Shown one piece after another: positions 1-10,645 of a stretch of 20,081 bases of DNA (position 1 is its first letter; the number at the start of each line of letters is the position of its first letter). Below the pieces are notes generated by a model. It was not told where the DNA came from. It ran no database searches and saw only the letters and a list, made by a program, of their open reading frames with translations. The position numbers and the translations under genes are program-made. The stretch lies in IMG/VR virus record IMGVR_UViG_3300030430_000048, positions 1 to 20,081 of that record; one strand, given 5' to 3'. The DNA is from a virus.

Positions 1-41
1 GCATCTTTTACTGCTCTGTTATTTAATTTAATTATACTCAT
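1..41 (-). CDS. 5' end of a further tandem fiber-family gene (partial)
   Basis: An open frame starts at ATG 41-39 and runs off the left edge after 13 complete codons. It begins M-S-I-I-K-L-N-N-R-A-V-K-D. Its start overlaps the TGA stop of the preceding gene in the ATGA arrangement. The opening resembles the N-termini of the two preceding genes, which read M-x-L-x-x-N-N-N-S-(L/I)-S-x-(V/I)-T-A-L. I infer another member of the same tail-tip family. No good Shine-Dalgarno sequence is seen; translation may be coupled to the upstream gene. Only the start is visible, so the product is uncertain. Confidence 0.5.
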   Translation of the reverse strand, partial: MSIIKLNNRAVKD

Positions 42-643
42 GATTTACTTAATCCAAACATCTTGATAACTCCGCTATCAATGTTACCACTTCCAAATTT
101 AAAATCTACACCATCAATAGCGGCAGTTACATTACAATAACCAGCAAAATACATATCAGCAGTTAAATCATTTTGGCTATAAGTATTACCTCTAACAATA
201 AAATGCTTTACGAACGTAGTTGATGAGGGAGAAAATAAAAACATTTCTCCACTAAAACTTTCGTCATTTAAGTTTCCTACTGTTCCTGAAATAGATTGAT
301 AAGATGTAGATTGTGCTAAATCTAAACCTGTTAAATAAGTTAAATCAGTTCCACCACTTTCACCGTGATAAGCATACCAAGAAGTAGTTGTTTTTGTTGC
401 GTCAAAAGCTGAACTTCCATCTCTAAAATTAACTTGTAAATGTTGGCTATCTGTTGCTGGATGAATGTTTATAAACTTAAATAAGTAAGTATCGTATGTG
501 CTATCAATATTAGAAGTAAAAGAAGATGACGATACTCCTGATGTGATAGTGTTTGTAGCAAGTAAAACTAATGAACCACTTGCTATACTATCTAAAGCCG
601 TTACACTTGAAATTGAATTGTTATTGTATTTAACTAACTCCAT
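38..643 (-). CDS. Small tail-tip/fiber family protein, 201 aa, tandem paralog
   Basis: Predicted virion surface protein of unknown exact role. The N-terminus (about residues 1-20) carries N-N-N-S-I-S-S-V-T-A-L. The rest is a Ser/Thr/Gly-rich, probably beta-sandwich domain. It has the family signatures D-S-T-Y near residue 47, then FKFINIHPATD, DLAQSTS, N-D-E-S, TTFVKHFI, A-I-D and a closing I-D-S-G-V-I-K-M-F-G. The same signatures occur in the 203-residue upstream neighbour, and weaker versions end the 352- and 261-residue proteins, so this is one paralogous family. ATG 643-641 lies inside the 3' end of the upstream gene with a 14-bp out-of-frame overlap. The likely ribosome site is an AGGAG in the upstream gene's conserved S-G-V codons. 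There is no signal peptide or membrane segment. A receptor-binding or tip role is inferred from position only. Confidence 0.8.
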   Translation of the reverse strand: MELVKYNNNSISSVTALDSIASGSLVLLATNTITSGVSSSSFTSNIDSTYDTYLFKFINIHPATDSQHLQVNFRDGSSAFDATKTTTSWYAYHGESGGTDLTYLTGLDLAQSTSYQSISGTVGNLNDESFSGEMFLFSPSSTTFVKHFIVRGNTYSQNDLTADMYFAGYCNVTAAIDGVDFKFGSGNIDSGVIKMFGLSKS

Positions 644-1241
644 ATAATTTTATAACTCCTGAATCTATTGCTCCTGAACTCATTTTAAATTGAATAGCAT
701 CTATTGCTGATGTTGTATTAAAATAACCTGCTGGGTAAGTATTATATTCATAACCACTACCACTAGCATTATATGATGATCCTGATGCAATAAAATGTTT
801 TACAAAGGTTGTATTTGATGGGTCAAATAAGTGTAGAGTTCCAGCAGCACTCTCATCATTTTGATTTCCAATTCCGTGTAATAATCTTTGAAAAGATGTG
901 CTTTGTGCTAAATCAGATGCTGCTTGGTAAGTTAAAGTTGCTTCACTGTCATCTTCTGCGTGATATGCTAAAGTATAACTTGAAGTTATATTAACTCCAT
1001 AACTTGACCCACCATCAGTTGATCCTTGAAAAGTTAAATGTGCTTCGTCTGTTGCTGGGTGTATATTAATAAATTTAAATATATATTCTTTATAAGTAGA
1101 GTCTATTCCACTTGTAAAATCTATCGTTGAACTGCTACTAGCTGTCTGTGTAGATATTAAATTTAATCCACCACCTGATATTGAAGCTGGTAAAGCTGTG
1201 ATTGCTGATAAGGAATTGTTGTTGCAAAAATTAAGAGACAT
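630..1241 (-). CDS. Small tail-tip/fiber family protein, 203 aa, tandem paralog
   Basis: Close paralog of the 201-residue protein encoded next. It opens M-S-L-N-F-C-N-N-N-S-L-S-A-I-T-A-L, followed by a beta-rich domain with FKFINIHPATD (identical in the neighbour), SDLAQSTSFQ, G-N-Q-N-D-E-S, L-F-D-P-S-N-TTFVKHFI, S-A-I-D and a final I-D-S-G-V-I-K-L-Y-G-V-S. The start is supported by AGGAG eight nucleotides upstream, whose first bases belong to the TAG stop of the preceding gene. Length and composition fit a short tail-fiber or tip protein rather than a long fiber shaft, since there is no coiled coil. The function is inferred from its location after a recognisable fiber gene. Duplication followed by divergence is the simplest origin. 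Confidence 0.82.
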   Translation of the reverse strand: MSLNFCNNNSLSAITALPASISGGGLNLISTQTASSSSTIDFTSGIDSTYKEYIFKFINIHPATDEAHLTFQGSTDGGSSYGVNITSSYTLAYHAEDDSEATLTYQAASDLAQSTSFQRLLHGIGNQNDESAAGTLHLFDPSNTTFVKHFIASGSSYNASGSGYEYNTYPAGYFNTTSAIDAIQFKMSSGAIDSGVIKLYGVS

Positions 1242-1250
1242 TTTTTACTC

Positions 1251-2309
1251 CTAACTTACACCATACAACTTGAAAATTCCTGAATCTATTGTTCCACCAC
1301 TACAATAAAATCTTATACCATCAACTGCTGATGTTGATTCAATTCTTCCTGAACCTGTAGAACCCATGTGATAATCTCCGTTCTCTTGTTGGCTTGTATG
1401 AAATGTTATATTTTTATTGAAAGTTGTTTCAGATGGGTCATAAAGAAAAAATCTTCCACTCAAAGCTGATGTGTCTTGTGAATCAAGGTCGGTGCTAACT
1501 TGTATAAATGTTGTATTTTGATTTCTAGCCACATAAGCAGATGTAGTAGTTGATTTTTGTCTGCTATAAGCAAAATCATAAACTGAACTAGAATTTACAG
1601 AACCACCTTGAAAAAATCTTAAATATAAACTTACTCCATCATCTGAATTGTGTAAATTAATTACATCAATCATATAAATTTTATATGTGTTATCAATATT
1701 AGAACTTATATCAACTTGTGAAACACTACTCGATACTGTTGTTGTAGATAGTAAAGCATGCGCGCCACTTGGTTTATCAACAAAACTCAAAACTCCTGAT
1801 GAGTTAGTTTGTATAATTTTATCTGTCGCTGGAGCAGTAGCTGGTAAAGTCAAAGTGTAAGATTGACCAGCAGAATGCGCTGGTGATTTAAGTTTTACTC
1901 CATGTGAATTTTGTGAGCAGTTTAATTGTAAAGTTCCATCTGTTGTTCCATCACCTTTAATTTGTAATCCAGCACCTGATGAAGTAGATACAAAGTTTGC
2001 TTTAGCATCTGTTACTGTAGCATCACTTGGAACACCTAAATCTAAAACATTACCAAGTAAAATAATAAAATCTATAACGTCACCTGTTGCTAAGTTTGAT
2101 GCAAAAGTTATTGTAGAACCTGAGATAGTAAATGATGAGTTTGGTTTTTGTAATACACCATTTAGAGATACAAGCATATGATTAGCAGACTCAGGTGTTA
2201 CATTAGCTGATGATACTTGCATTGTATAAGATGCTTGACCATTGACTACACTTATTGCATCGCAGACTTGAAAGTTTCCTGTTATTGGTGGGTTACCTAT
2301 ATATGCCAT
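1251..2309 (-). CDS. Tail fiber-like protein, 352 aa, modular
   Basis: A modular structural protein. Residues 1-105 form an N-terminal module that I recognise from many marine phage fiber proteins: it opens M-A-Y-I-G-N, then V-S-L-N-G-V-L-Q near 47-54, S-G-S-T-I-T-F-A near 63-70, and a hydrophobic F-I-I-L-L-G-N-V-L-D-L-G stretch that is a beta segment rather than a membrane helix. A linker of about 106-185 contains a repeat-like T-L-T-L-P-A/I-Q-T-N-S-S-G-V-L region. Residues 186-352 form the beta-rich family domain shared with its neighbours (N-T-Y near 207, L-Y-D-P-S-E-T-T-F, STSAVDGIRF, T-I-D-S-G-I-F-K-L-Y-G-V-S). The start has a strong AAGGAG, which overlaps the TAA of the upstream gene. 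It is probably attached to the virion through the N-terminal module; the ligand is unknown. Confidence 0.83.
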   Translation of the reverse strand: MAYIGNPPITGNFQVCDAISVVNGQASYTMQVSSANVTPESANHMLVSLNGVLQKPNSSFTISGSTITFASNLATGDVIDFIILLGNVLDLGVPSDATVTDAKANFVSTSSGAGLQIKGDGTTDGTLQLNCSQNSHGVKLKSPAHSAGQSYTLTLPATAPATDKIIQTNSSGVLSFVDKPSGAHALLSTTTVSSSVSQVDISSNIDNTYKIYMIDVINLHNSDDGVSLYLRFFQGGSVNSSSVYDFAYSRQKSTTTSAYVARNQNTTFIQVSTDLDSQDTSALSGRFFLYDPSETTFNKNITFHTSQQENGDYHMGSTGSGRIESTSAVDGIRFYCSGGTIDSGIFKLYGVS

Positions 2310-2319
2310 TTATATCTCC

Positions 2320-3105
2320 TTAACTTGTTTTTCTTCCATAAATTGAAAATACTCCTTGATCAATATTTCCTCCTGTGCTTGAAATTTTTGCTCCATTAAA
2401 AACAGTATCTTCTGAACCAGAGGCTTTATAACCACCACCACCATAATTATTTAATACTTTATTATCGCTTGTGTAATTTACTGTTCTATATGTACAGCTA
2501 AAAAATTTATCATCTGACGATTGATTCAATGGGTCATATAATTCTATTACACCTGATACGTTTTCACCTGTTGCATTACCTGAATCAGAAACGTGAAGTC
2601 TTATTTTATTATCATCTTGACTTTCTTTTGACCTTAAATTTCCATCAGAACCCTCTCCATGACCTCCATAAAAATAATCTGTTGTTGTAATAAAAGAAGA
2701 TCCTCCATCACTACTTATAAGAAATTCCATTTGACCACCATCATAAGTTAGTCCTACACCTGAAAAAATTATTAAATAATCAAGATGAGAAGTTGTAAAT
2801 TGAGAACTTGTAAATTCTACACTTGACACTGCACTTGAAATTGTTTGAGTCTGAATTAACTCATACATCCCACCACCTTTTAAATAAGAAAAATCTACTC
2901 TTTTTAAAGTTCCAGCATCAGAAATTAATAACTCGTCTGTGTCTGCTGGTGTTGCACCTAAAGCTGTATGACCTGTAATAACATTTGCGTTAAGGTGTTC
3001 GTTCTCAACTGCGTTGTCTGCTATCTTTGCTTCTGTTACCACATCAGCACTTAAATCACTTGATGTAATAACTTTTGGTGCTGGTTGTTGTCCTATGTAA
3101 CCCAC
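2320..3105 (-). CDS. Tail fiber-like protein, 261 aa, GTG start
   Basis: The start codon is GTG (3105-3103), chosen because AGGAG sits seven nucleotides upstream and the N-terminus (V/M)-G-Y-I-G-Q-Q-P-A matches a common phage fiber opening. Residues 1-45 contain a short D-L-S-A-D-V-V-T-E-A-K-I-A-D-N-A-V stretch typical of fiber N-terminal modules. Residues 45-80 resemble a connector. Residues 81-261 are a diverged version of the beta-rich family domain found in the next three genes (S-S-V-E-F-T-S, E-L-Y-D-P, G-N-I-D-Q-G-V-F-S-I-Y-G). It is the most divergent of the family, with a Gly-rich loop near residues 220-232. A virion tip or fiber role is inferred. The stop TAA is fused to the next gene's Shine-Dalgarno sequence. 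Confidence 0.8.
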   Translation of the reverse strand: MGYIGQQPAPKVITSSDLSADVVTEAKIADNAVENEHLNANVITGHTALGATPADTDELLISDAGTLKRVDFSYLKGGGMYELIQTQTISSAVSSVEFTSSQFTTSHLDYLIIFSGVGLTYDGGQMEFLISSDGGSSFITTTDYFYGGHGEGSDGNLRSKESQDDNKIRLHVSDSGNATGENVSGVIELYDPLNQSSDDKFFSCTYRTVNYTSDNKVLNNYGGGGYKASGSEDTVFNGAKISSTGGNIDQGVFSIYGRKTS

Positions 3106-3114
3106 TTAAAACTC

Positions 3115-3480
3115 CTATGTTATTTCCATGACTGACAGTGTGCCTGAAACTTTATCAGCAACTGAGCAATCGATTTGAATTTTGTCACCAGCTTCTAAAA
3201 TAACTTTAGAACCTGATAAAATTTCTAATGAACTTCCTGTTGGTATGGTTACATCCTTAACTAAAAAAGATGTTCCATTAGCAACATTGTTTGCACCACC
3301 TCTATTTGCTGTTGTGCTAACGTGTTCTACTTCAACTGTTACTGCTGTTGTATGAATGTTAGCTAATACAAGACCAAGAACTACAGTTGTTGTACTTCCT
3401 GCTGCTGTGTACATCACGTAAGGTGTTCCAGCTGAAGCTGGTTCTGCTGCGAAGTTGATTGCTTTAAAAGTATTTGCCAT
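3115..3480 (-). CDS. Small beta-rich structural protein, 121 aa
   Basis: I recognise this as a family common in marine phage structural clusters, without a firmly assigned function. The protein is short, with alternating hydrophobic/Thr/Val residues predicting a single beta sandwich: a Y-T-A-A-G-S-T-T-T-V-V-L-G-L stretch near residues 24-37, then I-P-T-G-S-S-L-E near 95-102 and a final L-S-V-M-E-I-T. There is no signal peptide or coiled coil. The start has a strong AGAGGAG seven nucleotides upstream. It sits between the main fiber and the tandem fiber-like genes, so a tail-fiber adaptor or accessory virion protein is plausible, but this is inference. Confidence 0.75.
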   Translation of the reverse strand: MANTFKAINFAAEPASAGTPYVMYTAAGSTTTVVLGLVLANIHTTAVTVEVEHVSTTANRGGANNVANGTSFLVKDVTIPTGSSLEILSGSKVILEAGDKIQIDCSVADKVSGTLSVMEIT

Positions 3481-3505
3481 TTATATCTCCTCTATCCTTT
3501 TACTC

Positions 3506-4711
3506 TTATCCCAATGCTATTGCAAGAGCTGTTGGATCGTCAGTCACAGCTATGGTTACTGTATCTGTTGCACTACCTGTCGTGGTAATACCTGATCCTG
3601 CAGCGATTGTTAGTGTGTTTCCGTTTGAAATAGTTTGGCTTGAACCGCTTGACCCTGCAACAGTAAAGCTCGTCATACCTGCGTCTATTTCAACAAACGC
3701 ACTTCCGTTAAATACACGAAGTCTATTCGTGCTAGAATTAAAATATAAATCGCCTGTGGTTAAAGCATCACCATCATTGTCTACTGATGGGTCTGAAGAT
3801 TTTGATCCTAAATAAGTGTCATCAAAAGCATCAGCACTCGCTGCCGCTGCTGTGGCACTAGCTGCTGCTGCAGTTGCAGAACTTGCTGCATTAGTTGCTT
3901 GTGTCGATGCAGTGGATGCAGATGTAGAAGCATTGGATGCTTGAGTTGCAGCTGAAGAAGCTGAACTTGCTGCGGCTGTAGCCGAACTCGCTGCTGCGGT
4001 TGCAGATGAAGCTGCCTCACTAGCTTTTGTTGTTGCTGTAGCAGCATCGACTAATAAATCATATTTTGATGCGTTGGCGTTTGTTGTTAATGGTTGTGAA
4101 CCTGAAGATGTATGAGCTGTATTAATCATGAAGATATTGTTTGTCGATGTATCTTTAACAATATCTCTTACAACATAAGCTGTACCAGCAGACCAATCAC
4201 CTTTGTTAGCACCAATCTCAGCTGTAACATTTAACTCACCTGAACTATCAAATCCTAAAACTTTACCAGCTCTATCTGTTGCAGAGTTTGTAAACTCTGT
4301 TGAGGTCATTGTGTTTGTTCTTGATAATTTAATCGATCTATCTAACTCTTCTTGAACTTGTTGAAGAGTCATCATAGCACGATCCAAACCCTCTTCGTGT
4401 GATTCCGCAGGGAATGGATCATTAGCGATATAGTCAATCGCCTGTGTTTGCGGAACTGCTCTTCTCAACACGACTGTTTCACCTGAAGCAGGTATATTTC
4501 CTGATGTGAAAGTGACACTTCCACCATTCGCATCTCCTGCACCAGCCACTGTGTAATGTGTGGTGATTGTTTTAACAGTCTCAATGCCTGTTGATGATCT
4601 TATGATGACCTGTAAGTCAGAGTCCGCAAAAATTTTAAATGTATAATTAAATGCAGTTGTAGAGCCATTGCCTGAATATGAATTTTTTACTGTAACCGAA
4701 GATATTGTCAT
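3506..4711 (-). CDS. Tail fiber protein with T7 gp17-type N-terminal domain
   Basis: Residues 1-130 match the virion-attachment domain of T7-type tail fibers: M-T-I-S-S-V, F-N-Y-T-F-K-I-F, an H-Y-T-V turn, V-V-L-R-R-A-V-P-Q-T-Q, Y-I-A-N-D-P-F-P-A-E-S-H-E-E-G-L-D-R and a helix M-M-T-L-Q-Q-V-Q-E-E-L-D-R-S-I. Residues 171-222 (D-W-S-A-G-T-A-Y-V-V-R-D-I-V) resemble a small carbohydrate-binding-like module frequent in fibers. Residues 224-296 are an Ala/Ser/Thr repeat, probably a trimeric shaft. Residues 300-345 contain a G-D-L-Y-F-N-S-S-T-N-R-L-R-V-F-N-G motif. At 401 residues it is shorter than T7 gp17 (553) and lacks an obvious long tip. The downstream small fiber genes may supply that function (inference). 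The start has AAGGA about ten nucleotides upstream. Confidence 0.92.
   Translation of the reverse strand: MTISSVTVKNSYSGNGSTTAFNYTFKIFADSDLQVIIRSSTGIETVKTITTHYTVAGAGDANGGSVTFTSGNIPASGETVVLRRAVPQTQAIDYIANDPFPAESHEEGLDRAMMTLQQVQEELDRSIKLSRTNTMTSTEFTNSATDRAGKVLGFDSSGELNVTAEIGANKGDWSAGTAYVVRDIVKDTSTNNIFMINTAHTSSGSQPLTTNANASKYDLLVDAATATTKASEAASSATAAASSATAAASSASSAATQASNASTSASTASTQATNAASSATAAAASATAAAASADAFDDTYLGSKSSDPSVDNDGDALTTGDLYFNSSTNRLRVFNGSAFVEIDAGMTSFTVAGSSGSSQTISNGNTLTIAAGSGITTTGSATDTVTIAVTDDPTALAIALG
3824..4042 (-). repeat. Ala/Ser/Thr-rich imperfect repeat inside the fiber gene
   Basis: Codons for about residues 224-296 are imperfect short repeats of the type A-S-S-A-T-A-A, A-S-T-S-A-S and A-A-A-A-S-A-T. 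This gives a GCT/GCA-rich stretch that stands out from the AT-rich surroundings. Such repeats form extended shafts in phage fibers and tend to change length by slippage. The alternative frames here also lack stops, which is a by-product of composition. Confidence 0.8.
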
Positions 4712-4713
4712 AT

Positions 4714-7263
4714 TTAAAATCCTTTAAATAGCTTTGATGGTTTAGTCAATAAAAATTCTTGACCTGTTTCCTTTTTCATTTTCTTTTCCATTTTTCTTAA
4801 ATGTCCTGGAGATAATGTTTCCAGTATTTGATAACCTATAGCATAATCAAAGGCAGTTTTTAAGTAAAATAAATTTAAGAATGGTATATTACCTACTAAA
4901 GATTTATAGGCTTGTTTTCCTGCTTTTGATGGCTCTCCTTGAAAAGCATATCTAAAAGCATTAGCAACTTTAGCAAATTCAGTAATCGCAGGACCTGCTG
5001 CTGTAGCTAAAATGTCTAAACCACTAAAACTTTTACCAAATAAAAAATCACCATAAATACCCAATCCACCTCCTTGAAGCATAGCAGCATAATATGTTCT
5101 TTTTTTAGTTGGGTCTTTAGGTGATTTACCTCTTAATAAATCTTTTGCAGTCATTGAAATATAGCCAAATATAGCAGACCCTACAATTAAACTGACTACA
5201 CCAAAAAATGCTTCTGCATTTCGACCAGCTCTAAATGATGATATTTCTCTACCCATAGCTTTTTGTAATATTGCAAGAGGAAACGCTTTAAATTGAAATA
5301 TAAATCTTGTTGCTTCACCCCAAAAAGTTCCTGCGTGTAAGCCACCTTTCATAAATGATCTTGTTCTTGCATCAGGTTCAATAACTGCATAAGTAGAACG
5401 ATCTAAAAACATACCCATTACTTTTGTTTTGAGATTATCCTTAAAAATAAATAGCTCTCTTGCAGACATTCTTTTTTTACCTGCTAACGATCTAATAACA
5501 TCATCAGATAAATTATCGATATTTTTAACTGAAAAAAATTCTTTTCCATCATCAGCTCTTTCTACATCCATTTTTCTAATTGTATTCCATATTTTTTCAT
5601 CAATACCAAAATGTTTTATTAACCTTTTAAATTTAAAATCTAAATTTTTAAAAGATATGTTTCTTTGTTTTGCAACATAATTTCCCATACCCAGCATAGC
5701 ACCTTCTTTAAGAGAATTAGTCCACCATTGTAACAAATTAAGTTTAAAAAAAGTTCTTTGTAATTTTGTAAAACCTCTATTTAAAGTGTCTCCCACTGAA
5801 TATCTTGCTGCTAAATCATAAATAATATTATCAGCCATGAATCCTAATTGTTCTGCTATTTCTTGTTTAGCTTTAGAATTTTTAATTTTTGCTAACCGTG
5901 TCATTGCTTCAGCAATACCACCTAAATAACTTCTACCTTGATATTTCAATTCTCTTCCATATAAATGAACATCAGCTAAAGCAGAAACAACAGCAGCACC
6001 TAATTTTGCCATAGACATAATAGAACGTGTAATACCACTCCATTTTGCTCCAGGAAAACTATTAATAGAATTGACCGAACCATCAATTTCAGCAAAATGT
6101 CTTTCATGTCTACCTTGAATTTTCATATAATCAGCAACCTTCATAGATTTACCTTGCTGACCTTTTTTAATTAAAGCATTTTGAACTAATTTTCCTATTT
6201 TTGTAAAACTATCTTTTGGCTTTGTACCTAATGTACTCATCAAACCAATATTTCTTCCAGCATAATTGAAACCAGCAAATAATGATTCTCTTAAATTTCC
6301 ACCACCAAACTTAGAATTATAATCAAACCAATCATCAGCAGTTTTAAAATGTAAAATTCTTTTTGCATTAAGTTTAGAAGTCATATCTCGACTACCATAA
6401 GAACCACCTGAACCTTCAGCAATTTGATGTTCATTTCTAATTAAAGAGTTGTAAGCATAAGTTAAAAATTCATCTCTATCTTTAACATTGTCAAAAGTTC
6501 TTTCGGCAAGTTTTGGTTTTATAAACGCTTTCCATGCTGCTAGATTTCTTTCTGCTGATCCATTGATGTCTTTAACATTTTTACTATTTTTTAAATTTAA
6601 AACATCAACAGCATTTCTTAGTTGAAAAGGATCGTGAGATTGTCTAACGATCCAACCTGGAAGTTTACCGATATTAGCACCAAAGTTATTATATTGTATT
6701 CTTAATGATTCCGAAAATTCATCTATTAGTTTTGCAAGTTCAACAATATCTTTATTTTTTTCTGTAATCGTTTTACCCTCTCCTATCTCCCATATTGTTC
6801 TTGATATTCTTCTATCAATATCAGAATTAGCTTTTGCAAATAATGTAGTCAGATTTTTTTGTCTTAATTTTTCTGAAAATGATGTAGCAATTTGTCTATA
6901 TTTAGAAAGTTGAGCAAGTGCAACTGAAGCTCTTGATCCTGCTTTTTGAAAATTAGAACCCACTAAAACTGCAGTTAAACCTTCTACTGGATTTTCAGGA
7001 AACTCTTTAAGAACATAATCAACTGTATTTCTAATTTTAATTTCGTTTTCTAAATTATTTCTTTGATTAATTTTCTTTTTTATTTCTTGTTGTTTTAAAA
7101 TTTTTTCTGATAAATCATTAACTAATGTCTCATCTAAATTTTGTACACCTACTTCTCTTTGAGCTTGTTGAATGTCTTTAAGAATATCCTCAGCTTTTGT
7201 AGTTTCAATAGATGATCGTTTTAAAGTTTCTCTTATTTGTATTAAACATTTATCTTCTGCCAT
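4714..7263 (-). CDS. Internal virion protein, gp16-like C-terminal part, 849 aa
   Basis: A large, basic, mostly helical protein at the T7 gene-16 position, directly before the fiber. Residues 1-80 are strongly helical and charged, probably coiled coil (D-I-Q-Q-A-Q-R-E-V and E-K-I-L-K-Q-Q-E-I-K-K-K-I). Residues 410-432 (I-M-S-M-A-K-L-G-A-A-V-V-S-A-L-A-D-V) and 684-705 (A-F-F-G-V-V-S-L-I-V-G-S-A-I-F-G-Y-I-S-M) are hydrophobic and could insert in a membrane. Residues 505-530 are amphipathic with W-W. These traits fit a protein ejected to form a DNA-transfer channel across the cell envelope. Together with the 427-residue protein encoded just before, its length approaches that of T7 gp16 (1318). 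The start follows AAAAGG; the gap to the previous stop is two bases. No muramidase motif is seen. The family assignment is moderately sure. Confidence 0.78.
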   Translation of the reverse strand: MAEDKCLIQIRETLKRSSIETTKAEDILKDIQQAQREVGVQNLDETLVNDLSEKILKQQEIKKKINQRNNLENEIKIRNTVDYVLKEFPENPVEGLTAVLVGSNFQKAGSRASVALAQLSKYRQIATSFSEKLRQKNLTTLFAKANSDIDRRISRTIWEIGEGKTITEKNKDIVELAKLIDEFSESLRIQYNNFGANIGKLPGWIVRQSHDPFQLRNAVDVLNLKNSKNVKDINGSAERNLAAWKAFIKPKLAERTFDNVKDRDEFLTYAYNSLIRNEHQIAEGSGGSYGSRDMTSKLNAKRILHFKTADDWFDYNSKFGGGNLRESLFAGFNYAGRNIGLMSTLGTKPKDSFTKIGKLVQNALIKKGQQGKSMKVADYMKIQGRHERHFAEIDGSVNSINSFPGAKWSGITRSIMSMAKLGAAVVSALADVHLYGRELKYQGRSYLGGIAEAMTRLAKIKNSKAKQEIAEQLGFMADNIIYDLAARYSVGDTLNRGFTKLQRTFFKLNLLQWWTNSLKEGAMLGMGNYVAKQRNISFKNLDFKFKRLIKHFGIDEKIWNTIRKMDVERADDGKEFFSVKNIDNLSDDVIRSLAGKKRMSARELFIFKDNLKTKVMGMFLDRSTYAVIEPDARTRSFMKGGLHAGTFWGEATRFIFQFKAFPLAILQKAMGREISSFRAGRNAEAFFGVVSLIVGSAIFGYISMTAKDLLRGKSPKDPTKKRTYYAAMLQGGGLGIYGDFLFGKSFSGLDILATAAGPAITEFAKVANAFRYAFQGEPSKAGKQAYKSLVGNIPFLNLFYLKTAFDYAIGYQILETLSPGHLRKMEKKMKKETGQEFLLTKPSKLFKGF

Positions 7264-7265
7264 AA

Positions 7266-8549
7266 TTACCTTTTAGTTACACAGTTGATACCATCTTTAA
7301 TAGCATCTTTAATTTCTTTAGATTTTTGATTAAATTCATCAACAGCTCTTTTAGTCGTTTGTATTTCTGCACTATCTTCAATGCCTAAATCTTTTTGTCT
7401 TTCTTTTATCAATGTTAATTGACTATCTAAATCCGCATTTTCTTGATCTAAATTTTTTGTTTCTAAATCTCTTTTTTTACTTTGTATTTCAAAATTATCT
7501 AATTCTCTTTGATCAGGACTTTTAACTATATCGCTTCCTGTATTTTGATCTGTGATTTCTTTATCTAAACCTTTAATATTATCATCAACTTGATTAACAT
7601 TTACTGTTTGATTTTTAGGCACAGCTTCGTTGATTTGAGCATTTCTTAATTTAGGGTCTAAATCTGCAATCGGTTTTACATTAATAGGTTTATCATCAAT
7701 TAAATCAGTTAAAGCTCTTTGTAATAAAGTAACTCGTATTTCAGGATCAGTCTCTGCTAGTTCTTTCATAATTCTTGAGTTTTCAGGATAGTATGCTTTA
7801 TAAGCATTCCATTCAGGTGTTTCTGCATTTGTAATACCTGCTTTTTCTTTTGCTGCAGCAACTTTTTTTTCAAACTTTCTTCGAGTTCTAAAATCTTTTA
7901 ATTTACCAGCACCAACATGAAGTCCACCACCAAGAATAGTTCCAAAACTAACAGCTAAAAAACTATCTAATAAATCATAATCTGATTGTTCTCGTTGTGC
8001 AGCTGTATAAACCACTGGCTCAATTAATGAAGTTCCTACTGTACCTTCTATTGCACCTTTTGCTAATCTTGCTCTTGTAAAACCATATTTAGCAACTAAA
8101 GAAGCAAATCGCATTTGACCTACGATAGGAACAAAAGCTAATGCTAAATTAAATGGGTCAGCAGCACTAGCAACAAAAGAAGTTCCTAATTTTAAGGCTG
8201 AAACACCAAAACCTTTAGGACCACGTTGAATAATACTTTGTCTCTCTCTTTCTTCTTTTTTTCTTTCAACTAAAATATCAACAGTTGATTGTTTTTCATC
8301 TTGATCAAAAAATAAATCTAAATTTGAATATTTTTTATTTAGTTCTTGTCTGTCAATAAGAGGTTCATCTCCAACTGTTGATCGATTGCCTTCAAGTTCG
8401 GAAAGCCTAATCAAAGAGGATGTTGGATTATATTTCCAAGCATCTGCTGCAACTGTGCTTAAAGTTTCACCTAATGTTGTTTGGTAAAGATCATAACCTC
8501 TTTCTTTTGCATTTTTATTATCTTGTAATCCAAATCCAATATTTGCCAT
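7266..8549 (-). CDS. Internal virion protein, gp16-like N-terminal part, 427 aa
   Basis: Residues 115-180 contain a Gly/Ala-rich hydrophobic region (S-F-V-A-S-A-A-D-P-F-N-L-A-L-A-F-V-P-I-V-G), then A-I-E-G-T-V-G-T-S-L-I-E-P-V-V-Y. A second hydrophobic run at 190-216 reads L-L-D-S-F-L-A-V-S-F-G-T-I-L-G-G-G-L-H. From memory, this D-P-x-N-L / E-G-x-V-G-x-x-L-x-E-P / G-G-G-L-H pattern occurs inside the very large internal proteins of related podoviruses. Residues 90-107 and 330-420 are highly charged helices, the latter probably coiled coil. The start ATG overlaps the previous stop (TAATG) with GGTGGAG upstream. It likely acts with the 849-residue protein in DNA ejection. No catalytic site is visible. 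Confidence 0.75.
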   Translation of the reverse strand: MANIGFGLQDNKNAKERGYDLYQTTLGETLSTVAADAWKYNPTSSLIRLSELEGNRSTVGDEPLIDRQELNKKYSNLDLFFDQDEKQSTVDILVERKKEERERQSIIQRGPKGFGVSALKLGTSFVASAADPFNLALAFVPIVGQMRFASLVAKYGFTRARLAKGAIEGTVGTSLIEPVVYTAAQREQSDYDLLDSFLAVSFGTILGGGLHVGAGKLKDFRTRRKFEKKVAAAKEKAGITNAETPEWNAYKAYYPENSRIMKELAETDPEIRVTLLQRALTDLIDDKPINVKPIADLDPKLRNAQINEAVPKNQTVNVNQVDDNIKGLDKEITDQNTGSDIVKSPDQRELDNFEIQSKKRDLETKNLDQENADLDSQLTLIKERQKDLGIEDSAEIQTTKRAVDEFNQKSKEIKDAIKDGINCVTKR

Positions 8550-10645
8550 TATGCTCCACCTGCTTCTTCCTCAATAGTTTTTTCTTTTTCCATAGTCATA
8601 ATTACATCAGTGTGAGGTAATAAAAAAGAATCATCGTCAAAATTTAATTTTAATTGTTTACCTTCTTTGTTAGTTACAATTCCAAACGTGCCATCGTAAA
8701 ATTTTATAGCAAAAACAATACCACTACCATCTGCTGTGTTAAGCCAAACACCATTTCTTTTAGCTTGATCAATTACTGATTCATTAAGTTCATCTACAGT
8801 AACTTCTTCATTTTCAGATTTAAAAGATTCAATATTAAATTCATTTAAATATCTTTCTTTAATAACATTAGCTTTCTTTTTGATAAACTCTATTTGACCT
8901 GAAGATAGTCTATCATTATTATAAATTCTTGGAATAAAATAAGTTTCTTCACTTAAATCAAAATTATTTGTGATAAAACCTGTAGCAAAATTTACAGCAT
9001 CTTTTTCGTCTGCACCTCGTGATAATTCATTAATAGTCATGTAAGTTAAAATTTCTGTAATTTCATCTAATTCTTTGTTAGCTTTTTGTGTATTGTAAGG
9101 ATTAGAATACAAAACCACTTGTCTAAATTCTTCTATTTCATCTGCAACAGATTTTTGCACTTCGCTAAATGTTATATCTGTGCCTTTTAAAAAATTTTTT
9201 AATCTATCTTTTTCTTCTTTAGTATCAATAGAAAGAGAGCTTAAAGCAAATTTTTCATCTCCTAAATAAGAAACTAATTTTGCAGTTACAGGTAAACCAT
9301 TAGCAGATAATTGACTTAATACTACACCATAATACTCACCATACTGTTCCTCTAATGATCTTAAATAACCAATTTTTTCTTGAGCTGTTCTACCATTATA
9401 ATCATCAACAATGCTTATAGCTTGTGCTTTTGGAATAACTTTTATTAAATCAGAATCAACACCTATATTAGTTTGTGCTTCTACAGTCATTGTTAAATAT
9501 TCTTTAAATAATTTATTTTTAACTTCAGGTTCTGTAGCTGATCTAAATTCTTCGTATTTATTTTTAACGTCATTATTAAAAGTTAAAACTAGATTAGCAG
9601 CATCCTCTTTAATTAATTCATCTTTTTTACTTAAAAAATTATTTAACTTTTGTTTGTATTGTAAATCTTGAGCATAATTCTCAGTTCTAACAGGATAAGA
9701 GTCAATAATTTTTCTTTCTTCTCCAATTTTAGAATTAAATAATTGACTTTTATAAGAACTAAAATTAATAACATTTTTTTCAGTTTCTTTAAAATTTTTA
9801 TAAGCATCATTACCAAAGGCTTCTATAATTGATTGTTCATTAATATCAATTTTTTTACCATCTTCTAAAGCAGCTAAATAATTAACCATATTTTCTTTGA
9901 TTTGAGGTTTTAAAGCATTTAAAGCATCTTTTTCTAAATCCATTCTTGTATCTAAAGAAATATTAGTAAATTTATCTTTGTTTCTTAAATCTTGTAGAGC
10001 TTGAGTTGGATTATTAGTAATCATTTGATTTACTTCAAAAACTTCTAATTCAGCAGGAATACCAAGAATTATTCTATCATAATCATCATTATCAATTTTA
10101 CCTTTAAAATTTTCTTCATATAGTTTTTCTAATTCTGTTCCAATAGTTTTAAATGCAAGTTTATTATTACTTAAATATGCTTCAGTAAGTAGTCTATTTT
10201 TTTTGATTGAAACTTGATTATCTAAAGATTGAATAATATTTGTAGAAACTCTTGTATTTGTTTTAAAAATACCTTTTTGTACTTCACTATAAAAATTATT
10301 ATTAAAAGTATCTCTAACAAATTTATTTGACGCTTTATTAGCGTATATATTTCTTATTTTATCAGATTCTGTTTGAATAATTTGAAAGGCTTGATCTTTA
10401 TTGTCTAACCTTCCAGCCTTTTCAAAAACTTCAGTTAATTCTAATAATGATTCGTTTTCTAATTTAAGAGCTTCTGTTTTATTTTCTAAATTTTTTTCGG
10501 TAACTCTATGTTTTACAATAGCTTGAGTCGCAGATTTCAAAGCGTTAGAAATGGTTGAAGTTAAAGGTATTGAAACATCTGCTTTTACAGAAGGTGTTGC
10601 AGCTGTTGGTCTAGCCTCTGTTGTAAATGTAGGTATTTTAACCAT
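8549..10645 (-). CDS. Internal virion protein, gp15-like, 698 aa
   Basis: A long, charged, almost wholly helical protein rich in Lys, Glu, Asn and Ile, with no membrane segment or signal peptide. Its position, after the gp14-like gene and before the gp16-like pair, and its length (T7 gp15 is 747) suggest the gp15-type internal core/ejection protein. The N-terminus is Pro/Thr-rich (about residues 1-35), followed by helical repeats with K-N-L-E-N-K-T-E-A-L-K and similar charged runs. The C-terminus is acidic to the last residues (M-E-K-E-K-T-I-E-E-E). The start codon overlaps the previous stop as TAATG, with AAAGG ten bases upstream, so translation is probably coupled. The assignment rests more on synteny and architecture than on specific motifs. 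Confidence 0.75.
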   Translation of the reverse strand: MVKIPTFTTEARPTAATPSVKADVSIPLTSTISNALKSATQAIVKHRVTEKNLENKTEALKLENESLLELTEVFEKAGRLDNKDQAFQIIQTESDKIRNIYANKASNKFVRDTFNNNFYSEVQKGIFKTNTRVSTNIIQSLDNQVSIKKNRLLTEAYLSNNKLAFKTIGTELEKLYEENFKGKIDNDDYDRIILGIPAELEVFEVNQMITNNPTQALQDLRNKDKFTNISLDTRMDLEKDALNALKPQIKENMVNYLAALEDGKKIDINEQSIIEAFGNDAYKNFKETEKNVINFSSYKSQLFNSKIGEERKIIDSYPVRTENYAQDLQYKQKLNNFLSKKDELIKEDAANLVLTFNNDVKNKYEEFRSATEPEVKNKLFKEYLTMTVEAQTNIGVDSDLIKVIPKAQAISIVDDYNGRTAQEKIGYLRSLEEQYGEYYGVVLSQLSANGLPVTAKLVSYLGDEKFALSSLSIDTKEEKDRLKNFLKGTDITFSEVQKSVADEIEEFRQVVLYSNPYNTQKANKELDEITEILTYMTINELSRGADEKDAVNFATGFITNNFDLSEETYFIPRIYNNDRLSSGQIEFIKKKANVIKERYLNEFNIESFKSENEEVTVDELNESVIDQAKRNGVWLNTADGSGIVFAIKFYDGTFGIVTNKEGKQLKLNFDDDSFLLPHTDVIMTMEKEKTIEEEAGGA

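Follow-up and report, generated by a model that had tools for sequence, protein, structure and literature searches.

The closest described counterparts of the genes considered here are two viral fibres assembled from several small proteins. Dishui Lake virophage 2 (DSLV2) has three paralogous tail genes in a row, whose products fall into positional clades and co-purify as a heterotrimer (PMC12724248). In the Anabaena myophage A-1(L), the neck fibre is a chain of homotrimeric beads, gp82, gp81 and gp80, which share an operon and are joined through N-terminal beta-hairpins; for every trimer of gp82 and of gp80 the chain contains ∼14 of gp81 (PMC10966104). We analysed a 20,081-bp virus fragment, IMG/VR record IMGVR_UViG_3300030430_000048 (G000; its whole length is termed the window), from an HTVC010P-type pelagiphage whose closest named relatives are HTVC035P, HTVC034P, HTVC100P and HTVC010P. 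Behind its tail-fibre gene lies an array of small fibre genes. The ∼200 amino acid (aa) members of this family occur as ordered A–B–C triplets, and we consider it likely that each triplet encodes the three chains of a single heterotrimeric fibre tip, whose heads can be exchanged one at a time.

The DSLV2 set consists of three consecutive ∼200-aa paralogous genes in fixed order, with clades by position and a proposed trimeric fibre (PMC12724248), and the phage triplets share the first three of these features, i.e. consecutive paralogues, fixed order and clades by position. The two systems differ in that DSLV2 is a virophage whose proteins have the T4 gp37 collar/tip fold (PF07484), whereas the phage family gave no PF07484 match (E up to 1, in the A and B proteins and the single-gene fibres Y1 and Y2 listed below), and in that one three-gene set per genome was described for DSLV2 (PMC12724248). 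With A-1(L) the triplets have in common a fibre made of several small separate proteins, one operon and joining by N-terminal segments. In contrast, the A-1(L) beads are homotrimers at ∼14:1:1, and gp82, gp81 and gp80 are likened to the triplets by description, not by sequence.

Vertebrate C1q is an A–B–C heterotrimer. C1q-like receptor-binding candidates lie beside the fibres of pelagiphages, including relatives of HTVC010P, and are hypervariable in metaviromes (PMC3909814). The likeness to the genes studied here is one of position beside the fibre and of description; the window proteins tested gave no match to the C1q domain in Pfam (PF00386; E up to 1). Single triplets of the type found in the window (type I) are present in the isolates HTVC010P (gp30–32), HTVC034P (gp37–35) and HTVC019P (gp45–47), and in the SAR11 single-cell contig AG-439-N16. 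The isolate genes are annotated as ‘hypothetical proteins’, and their records state no function or assembly for the triplet genes, whose family is PHROG_14820. An open-access literature search, with subscription journals outside its scope, found no paper describing phage triplets.

Ordered triplets and their shared head domain

The genes of the array are as follows (window coordinates unless stated otherwise).

1..41, minus strand: gene C of a type I triplet, 5′ end (MSIIKLNNRAVKDA...), truncated at the window edge
9210–9812 of the near-identical contig L006: the counterpart of gene C, a complete 200-aa protein with the full domain (E 1.3e-63)
38..643, minus strand: gene B of the type I triplet, 201 aa, stem MELVKYNNNSISSVTAL and head domain (residues 23–198)
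630..1241, minus strand: gene A of the type I triplet, 203 aa, stem MSLNFCNNNSLSAITAL and head domain (residues 24–202)
1251..2309, minus strand: Y2, single fibre gene, 352 aa, N-terminal module YIG...CDAISVVNGQASYTM and shared head (residues 182–351)
2320..3105, minus strand: Y1, single fibre gene, 261 aa, GTG start, N-terminal module YIGQQPAPKVITSSDL and divergent head (residues 79–257)

The ATG of gene C (39–41) overlaps the TGA of gene B (38–40), and genes A and B overlap by 14 nt. Gene B ends in the longer C-terminal tail FGLSKS that is typical of position B in the tail statistics given below. The N-terminal module of Y2 matches PHROG_18673 (tail fibre).

The original prediction had described five consecutive genes that appear related (261, 352, 203 and 201 aa and one cut by the edge), with positions and lengths that are all correct, and held that the first four end in the same domain. 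Both the profile searches and the structure predictions that it called for place this similarity far above chance. PHROG_14820 matched the 203-aa (1.4e-82) and 201-aa (3.5e-67) proteins over their whole length and the 352-aa protein over residues 180–352 only (2.2e-21), and gave no match in the 261-aa protein. A separate head profile, built from short relatives only and leaving out the 261-aa class, matched the domains of the 352-aa (4.8e-32) and 261-aa (1.2e-15) proteins and no reversed decoys. We count the 261-aa protein as a family member because of this match, which is its sole route of membership. AlphaFold2, run on monomers only, predicted an all-beta domain both for the 203-aa protein (predicted local distance difference test 90.2; predicted template modelling score 0.83) and for the 261-aa protein (80.8 overall, with domain block means mostly 92–97 and low confidence in the first 50 residues). 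The two models picked the same solved folds, a GH32 beta-sandwich and galectins, at modest Z scores of 6–9. The N-terminal carbohydrate recognition domain of galectin-8 aligned with the head model over 122 residues (Z 7.7; root-mean-square deviation 3.3; 13% identity), and gp37 was not among the folds listed in this comparison. More than 100 predicted viral proteins have the same fold at E below 0.001. By sequence, Pfam gave no galectin match in the window proteins tested, and a search of solved structures returned a single match (E 1.5).

Two further candidates were discarded for the 261-aa protein: a PT-VENN match (E 0.021), which misses the Pfam cut-off and was taken as spurious, and the Haloferax virus 1 tail fibre (9h5b), whose similarity to the model (Z 6.5) is too weak for use. 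Together, the profiles, decoys and predicted folds rule out chance similarity of the C-terminal motif. The ending I-D-x-G-V/I-x-K-x-Y/F-G that had been given for all four proteins is loose in the 261-aa protein (IDQGVFSIYG), and the fifth gene, thought to show only the N-terminal motif of the family, is a complete 200-aa domain member in L006.

Four scans, covering IMG/VR and isolates, yielded a non-redundant set of 170 arrays, in which the short genes (about 195–225 aa) were sorted into stem types by their N-terminal peptide. The ordered A–B–C arrangement was found in IMG/VR, isolates and SAR11 single-cell genomes. In the 115 runs that lay wholly within a contig, three genes were present in 93 cases and six in 18, and L164 is one further six-gene run with one gene frameshifted. 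The exceptions were L104, a five-gene run in which one gene seems to join a C stem to an A head (1945–2559), L044, a single gene with an A stem on a C-like end (748–1353), and the isolate Lederberg, with a distant single gene (30% identical). Later scans used type IV, V and VI queries and took in bacterial genomes, with some contigs overlapping the first set, and exactly three genes were present in 61 of the 67 complete runs. Among the others, inspection showed that the three genes of L298 are merely spaced more widely, that L329 appears to be joined to foreign DNA, and that L249 and L250 have a triplet followed by a chaperone and a single gene. Across 175 complete triplets, gene order matches stem class almost without exception. 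Nearly all copies are intact and tightly packed, with overlaps of 14, 4 or 1 nt in most.

Position-specific stems and heads, and head exchange

Stems of type I, the type in the window, are MALNFANNNSLSAIT-like in A, MALVKYNNNSISSVT-like in B and MSIVKLNNRAVKDAT-like in C, and those of type II are VAISKANFNSFNVTP (A), MALTKFNFNSFDVTT (B) and MALNKLKFNSLNVTP (C). Types III–VI have other stems again, and the SAR11 single-cell contig L331 shows yet another. Within most types the A/B/C stems agree in length, at 23/22/23 residues in type I, 36/35/36 in type II, 16/18/20 in type III and about 40 each in type IV. Between triplets, the A, B and C stem distances correlate with one another at 0.66–0.81, despite the ∼540-nt head in between. 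In contrast, the correlation of a stem with its own head is 0.16–0.34, and with the adjacent chaperone 0.22–0.30. In L249 (4956–5851) and L250 (2317–2910), the type V triplet and its chaperone are followed by a lone gene that also has a type V stem. The single gene of L249 has its own chaperone, as if it were a homotrimeric relative beside the three-gene set.

Position is also recorded in the heads. In the numbering of the 203-aa protein, positional information lies mainly at residues 28–32, 51–58, 135/137/140 and 196/198/202, i.e. in four strands, and is ∼0 in the other seven head strands; its chief carriers are residues 28, 30–32, 52/54/56/58, 135/137 and 196/198/202. Within strands 52–62, 132–139 and 192–203 the signal alternates residue by residue and thereby marks out a single face, the residues between being conserved core. 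At residue 198, every A and B head has K, both in type I (A, 108/108; B, 108/108) and in type II (A, 45/45; B, 45/45), whereas K is not among the C residues of type I and is absent from the common C residues of type II. The C-terminal tails after YG have 2, 4 (or 3) and 2 residues in A, B and C, respectively, in types I, II and nearly all of IV; the longer-tailed chain is thus B in these types, and it is A in types III and V. In a tree of the heads only, the positional label changes 76 times, compared with an average of 246 (minimum 230) when labels were permuted within triplets.

At head residues about 43–50, B and C either both have an insertion of ∼6 aa or both lack it, and A almost never has one (Fisher 1e-10 in type I and 3e-9 in type II). 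As direct evidence of contact between B and C this agreement was set aside, because the two triplets of an array agree equally well.

Heads more than 90% identical are found on different stems, for example in L116 (type II) and L046 (type I), or in L105 (A, type I) and L202 (C, type III). Usually one head is common to two triplets and the other two are at background identity. The coordinated transfer of whole head sets was therefore mostly rejected, with L116 and L046 the only pair to share all three heads (96–98%). Exchange between positions was examined with 39 cross-position head pairs more than 72% identical, set against same-position controls. In the cross-position pairs, mismatches amounted to 36% in residues 24–60, 28% in 192–203 and 13% in the centre, compared with 17%, 12% and 22% in the controls. 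This concentration of mismatches at the N- and C-terminal ends of the head indicates that the centre is exchanged while the frame stays with the position. The duplication and module exchange of the original prediction are supported.

Proposed subunit composition of the fibre tip

In the arrangement that we regard as probable, the 203-aa, 201-aa and cut ∼200-aa genes of the window would encode chains A, B and C of one tip. Each chain would have a short stem (22–23 aa in type I) that pairs with the other two stems, and would carry a galectin/ConA-like beta-sandwich head. Position A, B or C would be written in the stem and in the four head strands, taken as the faces touching neighbouring chains. 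The rest of the head would face the receptor and could be exchanged across positions and phages without breaking assembly. A role of the heads in receptor binding is suggested by the position of their genes after that of the tail fibre, by head exchange and by the lectin-like predicted fold, and the complex is predicted to sit on the virion. A phage carries one to three triplets of different stem types together with single-gene fibres of the 261- and 352-aa types, and one tail-fibre assembly chaperone after the set. Three different heads would then be displayed together on each tip, and shifts in host specificity could come about one head at a time. Since a heterotrimer in a trimeric fibre dictates the number three, this proposal would explain why there are three genes per set. 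The presence of three distinct subunits in one trimer would likewise account for the matched, co-varying stems and for a position-specific head face beside a freely moving rest. The DSLV2 heterotrimer, although built on another fold, is a precedent for such an assembly.

Several observations weigh against a heterotrimer. Type VI stems lack the length match, and those of types V and III are matched only roughly. Stems of the two triplets within one array correlate at 0.40–0.76, so stem co-variation partly reflects shared lineage, and lineage may also explain the joint loop insertion in B and C. Heads co-vary little from A to B or from A to C (r 0.10–0.21). The position-specific residues next to the stem could owe their pattern to ancestry outside the recombination tract, a reading against which residues 135/137 speak only moderately. 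There are odd arrays too: the single chimeric gene of L044, the five-gene run of L317 (2473–3757), which stays an exception, and the triplet of L158 (4777–5397), which mixes stem types (IIA, IIB, IC). These arrays, like L104, could be true recombinants or short-read misassemblies of repeats. Ordered triplets would also be expected if there were three homotrimers with fixed virion places that are inherited as a group, and the oligomeric state proposed here rests on sequence patterns and monomer models.

The main alternative, which we regard as unlikely, is a single fibre of three kinds of homotrimer, of A, of B and of C, stacked head to tail; every bead would dock by its N-terminal peptide on the one before it. 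The gp82/gp81/gp80 bead chain of A-1(L) provides a model (PMC10966104), and the short N-terminal peptides and gene-specific features fit it. However, a chain would not restrict sets to three genes in several unrelated types of stem, and it offers no reason for equal stem lengths or for stems that co-vary more with one another than with their own heads. The original prediction had envisaged a set of tips in alternative or joint use, which would make A, B and C independent homotrimers whose order is inherited co-location. Single-gene relatives with the same domain do exist (Y1, Y2, Lederberg_4 and the type V gene of L249 and L250) and are probably homotrimers, and heads are exchanged singly. Under independence, loss or gain of single genes should be common, yet complete runs have three or six genes with rare exceptions, and the position code persists where head centres have moved from one position to another. 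We regard independent tips as unlikely, slightly more so than the stacked chain.

Of the two modes of use, joint use is favoured, in a form that had not been proposed, namely an ordered A–B–C set best read as a heterotrimer. The contrast that had been drawn with T7 was a fair one: T7 gp17 is a single homotrimeric fibre with its own tip, whereas in the window a 401-aa tail-fibre protein, matched mainly in its N-terminal part, is also encoded upstream and is followed by a multi-gene array. It is very improbable that the copies serve as a reservoir of variation, with one expressed or assembled and the others donating sequence by recombination. Positions and phages do exchange head segments by recombination, but nearly all copies are intact, tightly packed and present once per position, and their position-specific residues are conserved, which is unexpected for an unused donor.

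The adhesion cassette in different phage backgrounds

Two genes precede the array in the window.

3115..3480, minus strand: 121-aa protein; the gene in the same place in HTVC034P and HTVC010P is annotated ‘virion structural protein’
3506..4711, minus strand: 401-aa tail-fibre protein, upstream of the array; its N-terminal part matches phage tail protein families

In the cassette, the triplets are preceded by the 121-aa protein, Y1 and Y2, and followed by a 95–98-aa protein that matches tail-fibre assembly families (PHROG_4912). No chaperone-like open reading frames lie between A and B or between B and C (0/221). The notion of one chaperone per fibre unit was dropped, because most type II triplets continue into the next set without one.

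In contig L008 (IMGVR_UViG_3300030330_000448), positions 1634–10164 carry Y1, a type II and a type I triplet and the chaperone, the cassette also present in the podovirus window, and the array is preceded by a 116-aa protein of the same PHROG families as the 121-aa protein. The L008 cassette follows a central tail fibre of the lambda J type (PHROG_31, 6.7e-83), which places it in a siphophage. HTVC019P is an Autographivirus, and so the cassette crosses phage groups: it occurs in podoviruses, an Autographivirus and a siphovirus. The 401-aa protein of the window ends in ...TALAIALG, and a 104-aa protein in the same place in L008 (4610–4924) ends in LPLAIALG. The two proteins look unrelated except for this similar end, and LAIALG is a possible docking element for the fibre set. 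The related pelagiphages HTVC035P (L333) and Skadi-1 (L334) gave no match to the head domain in the phage search and have other genes in the slot after the tail fibre, indicating that the cassette is replaceable. Y2-type proteins of L025 (842–1654) and L069 (6895–7692) have the same N-terminal module and a different C-terminal tip (...ITAIEIGA), and their genes are followed by a small open reading frame of ∼100 aa, a further case of tip exchange.

A broader proposal, for and against which we see the balance as even, is that marine phages of unrelated morphologies have in common a plug-in adhesion cassette of heterotrimeric tips. The A–B–C code would lie in the stems and in one set of interface strands, the three heads would be chosen independently from a common pool, and one to three triplets would be stacked per phage, such that n heads could give many three-part receptor specificities.

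Our results reveal the same adhesion cassette in podo- and siphophages, suggest a function for PHROG_14820, annotated ‘unknown’, and offer a position code that is directly testable on the proteins of the cultured phages HTVC010P, HTVC034P and HTVC019P. Phage fibres are generally seen as homotrimers, in which a single gene change alters all three binding sites. If the A–B–C heterotrimers are real, one tip would present three different heads that are changed one by one, which would bear on how pelagiphages keep pace with the highly diverse surfaces of SAR11.

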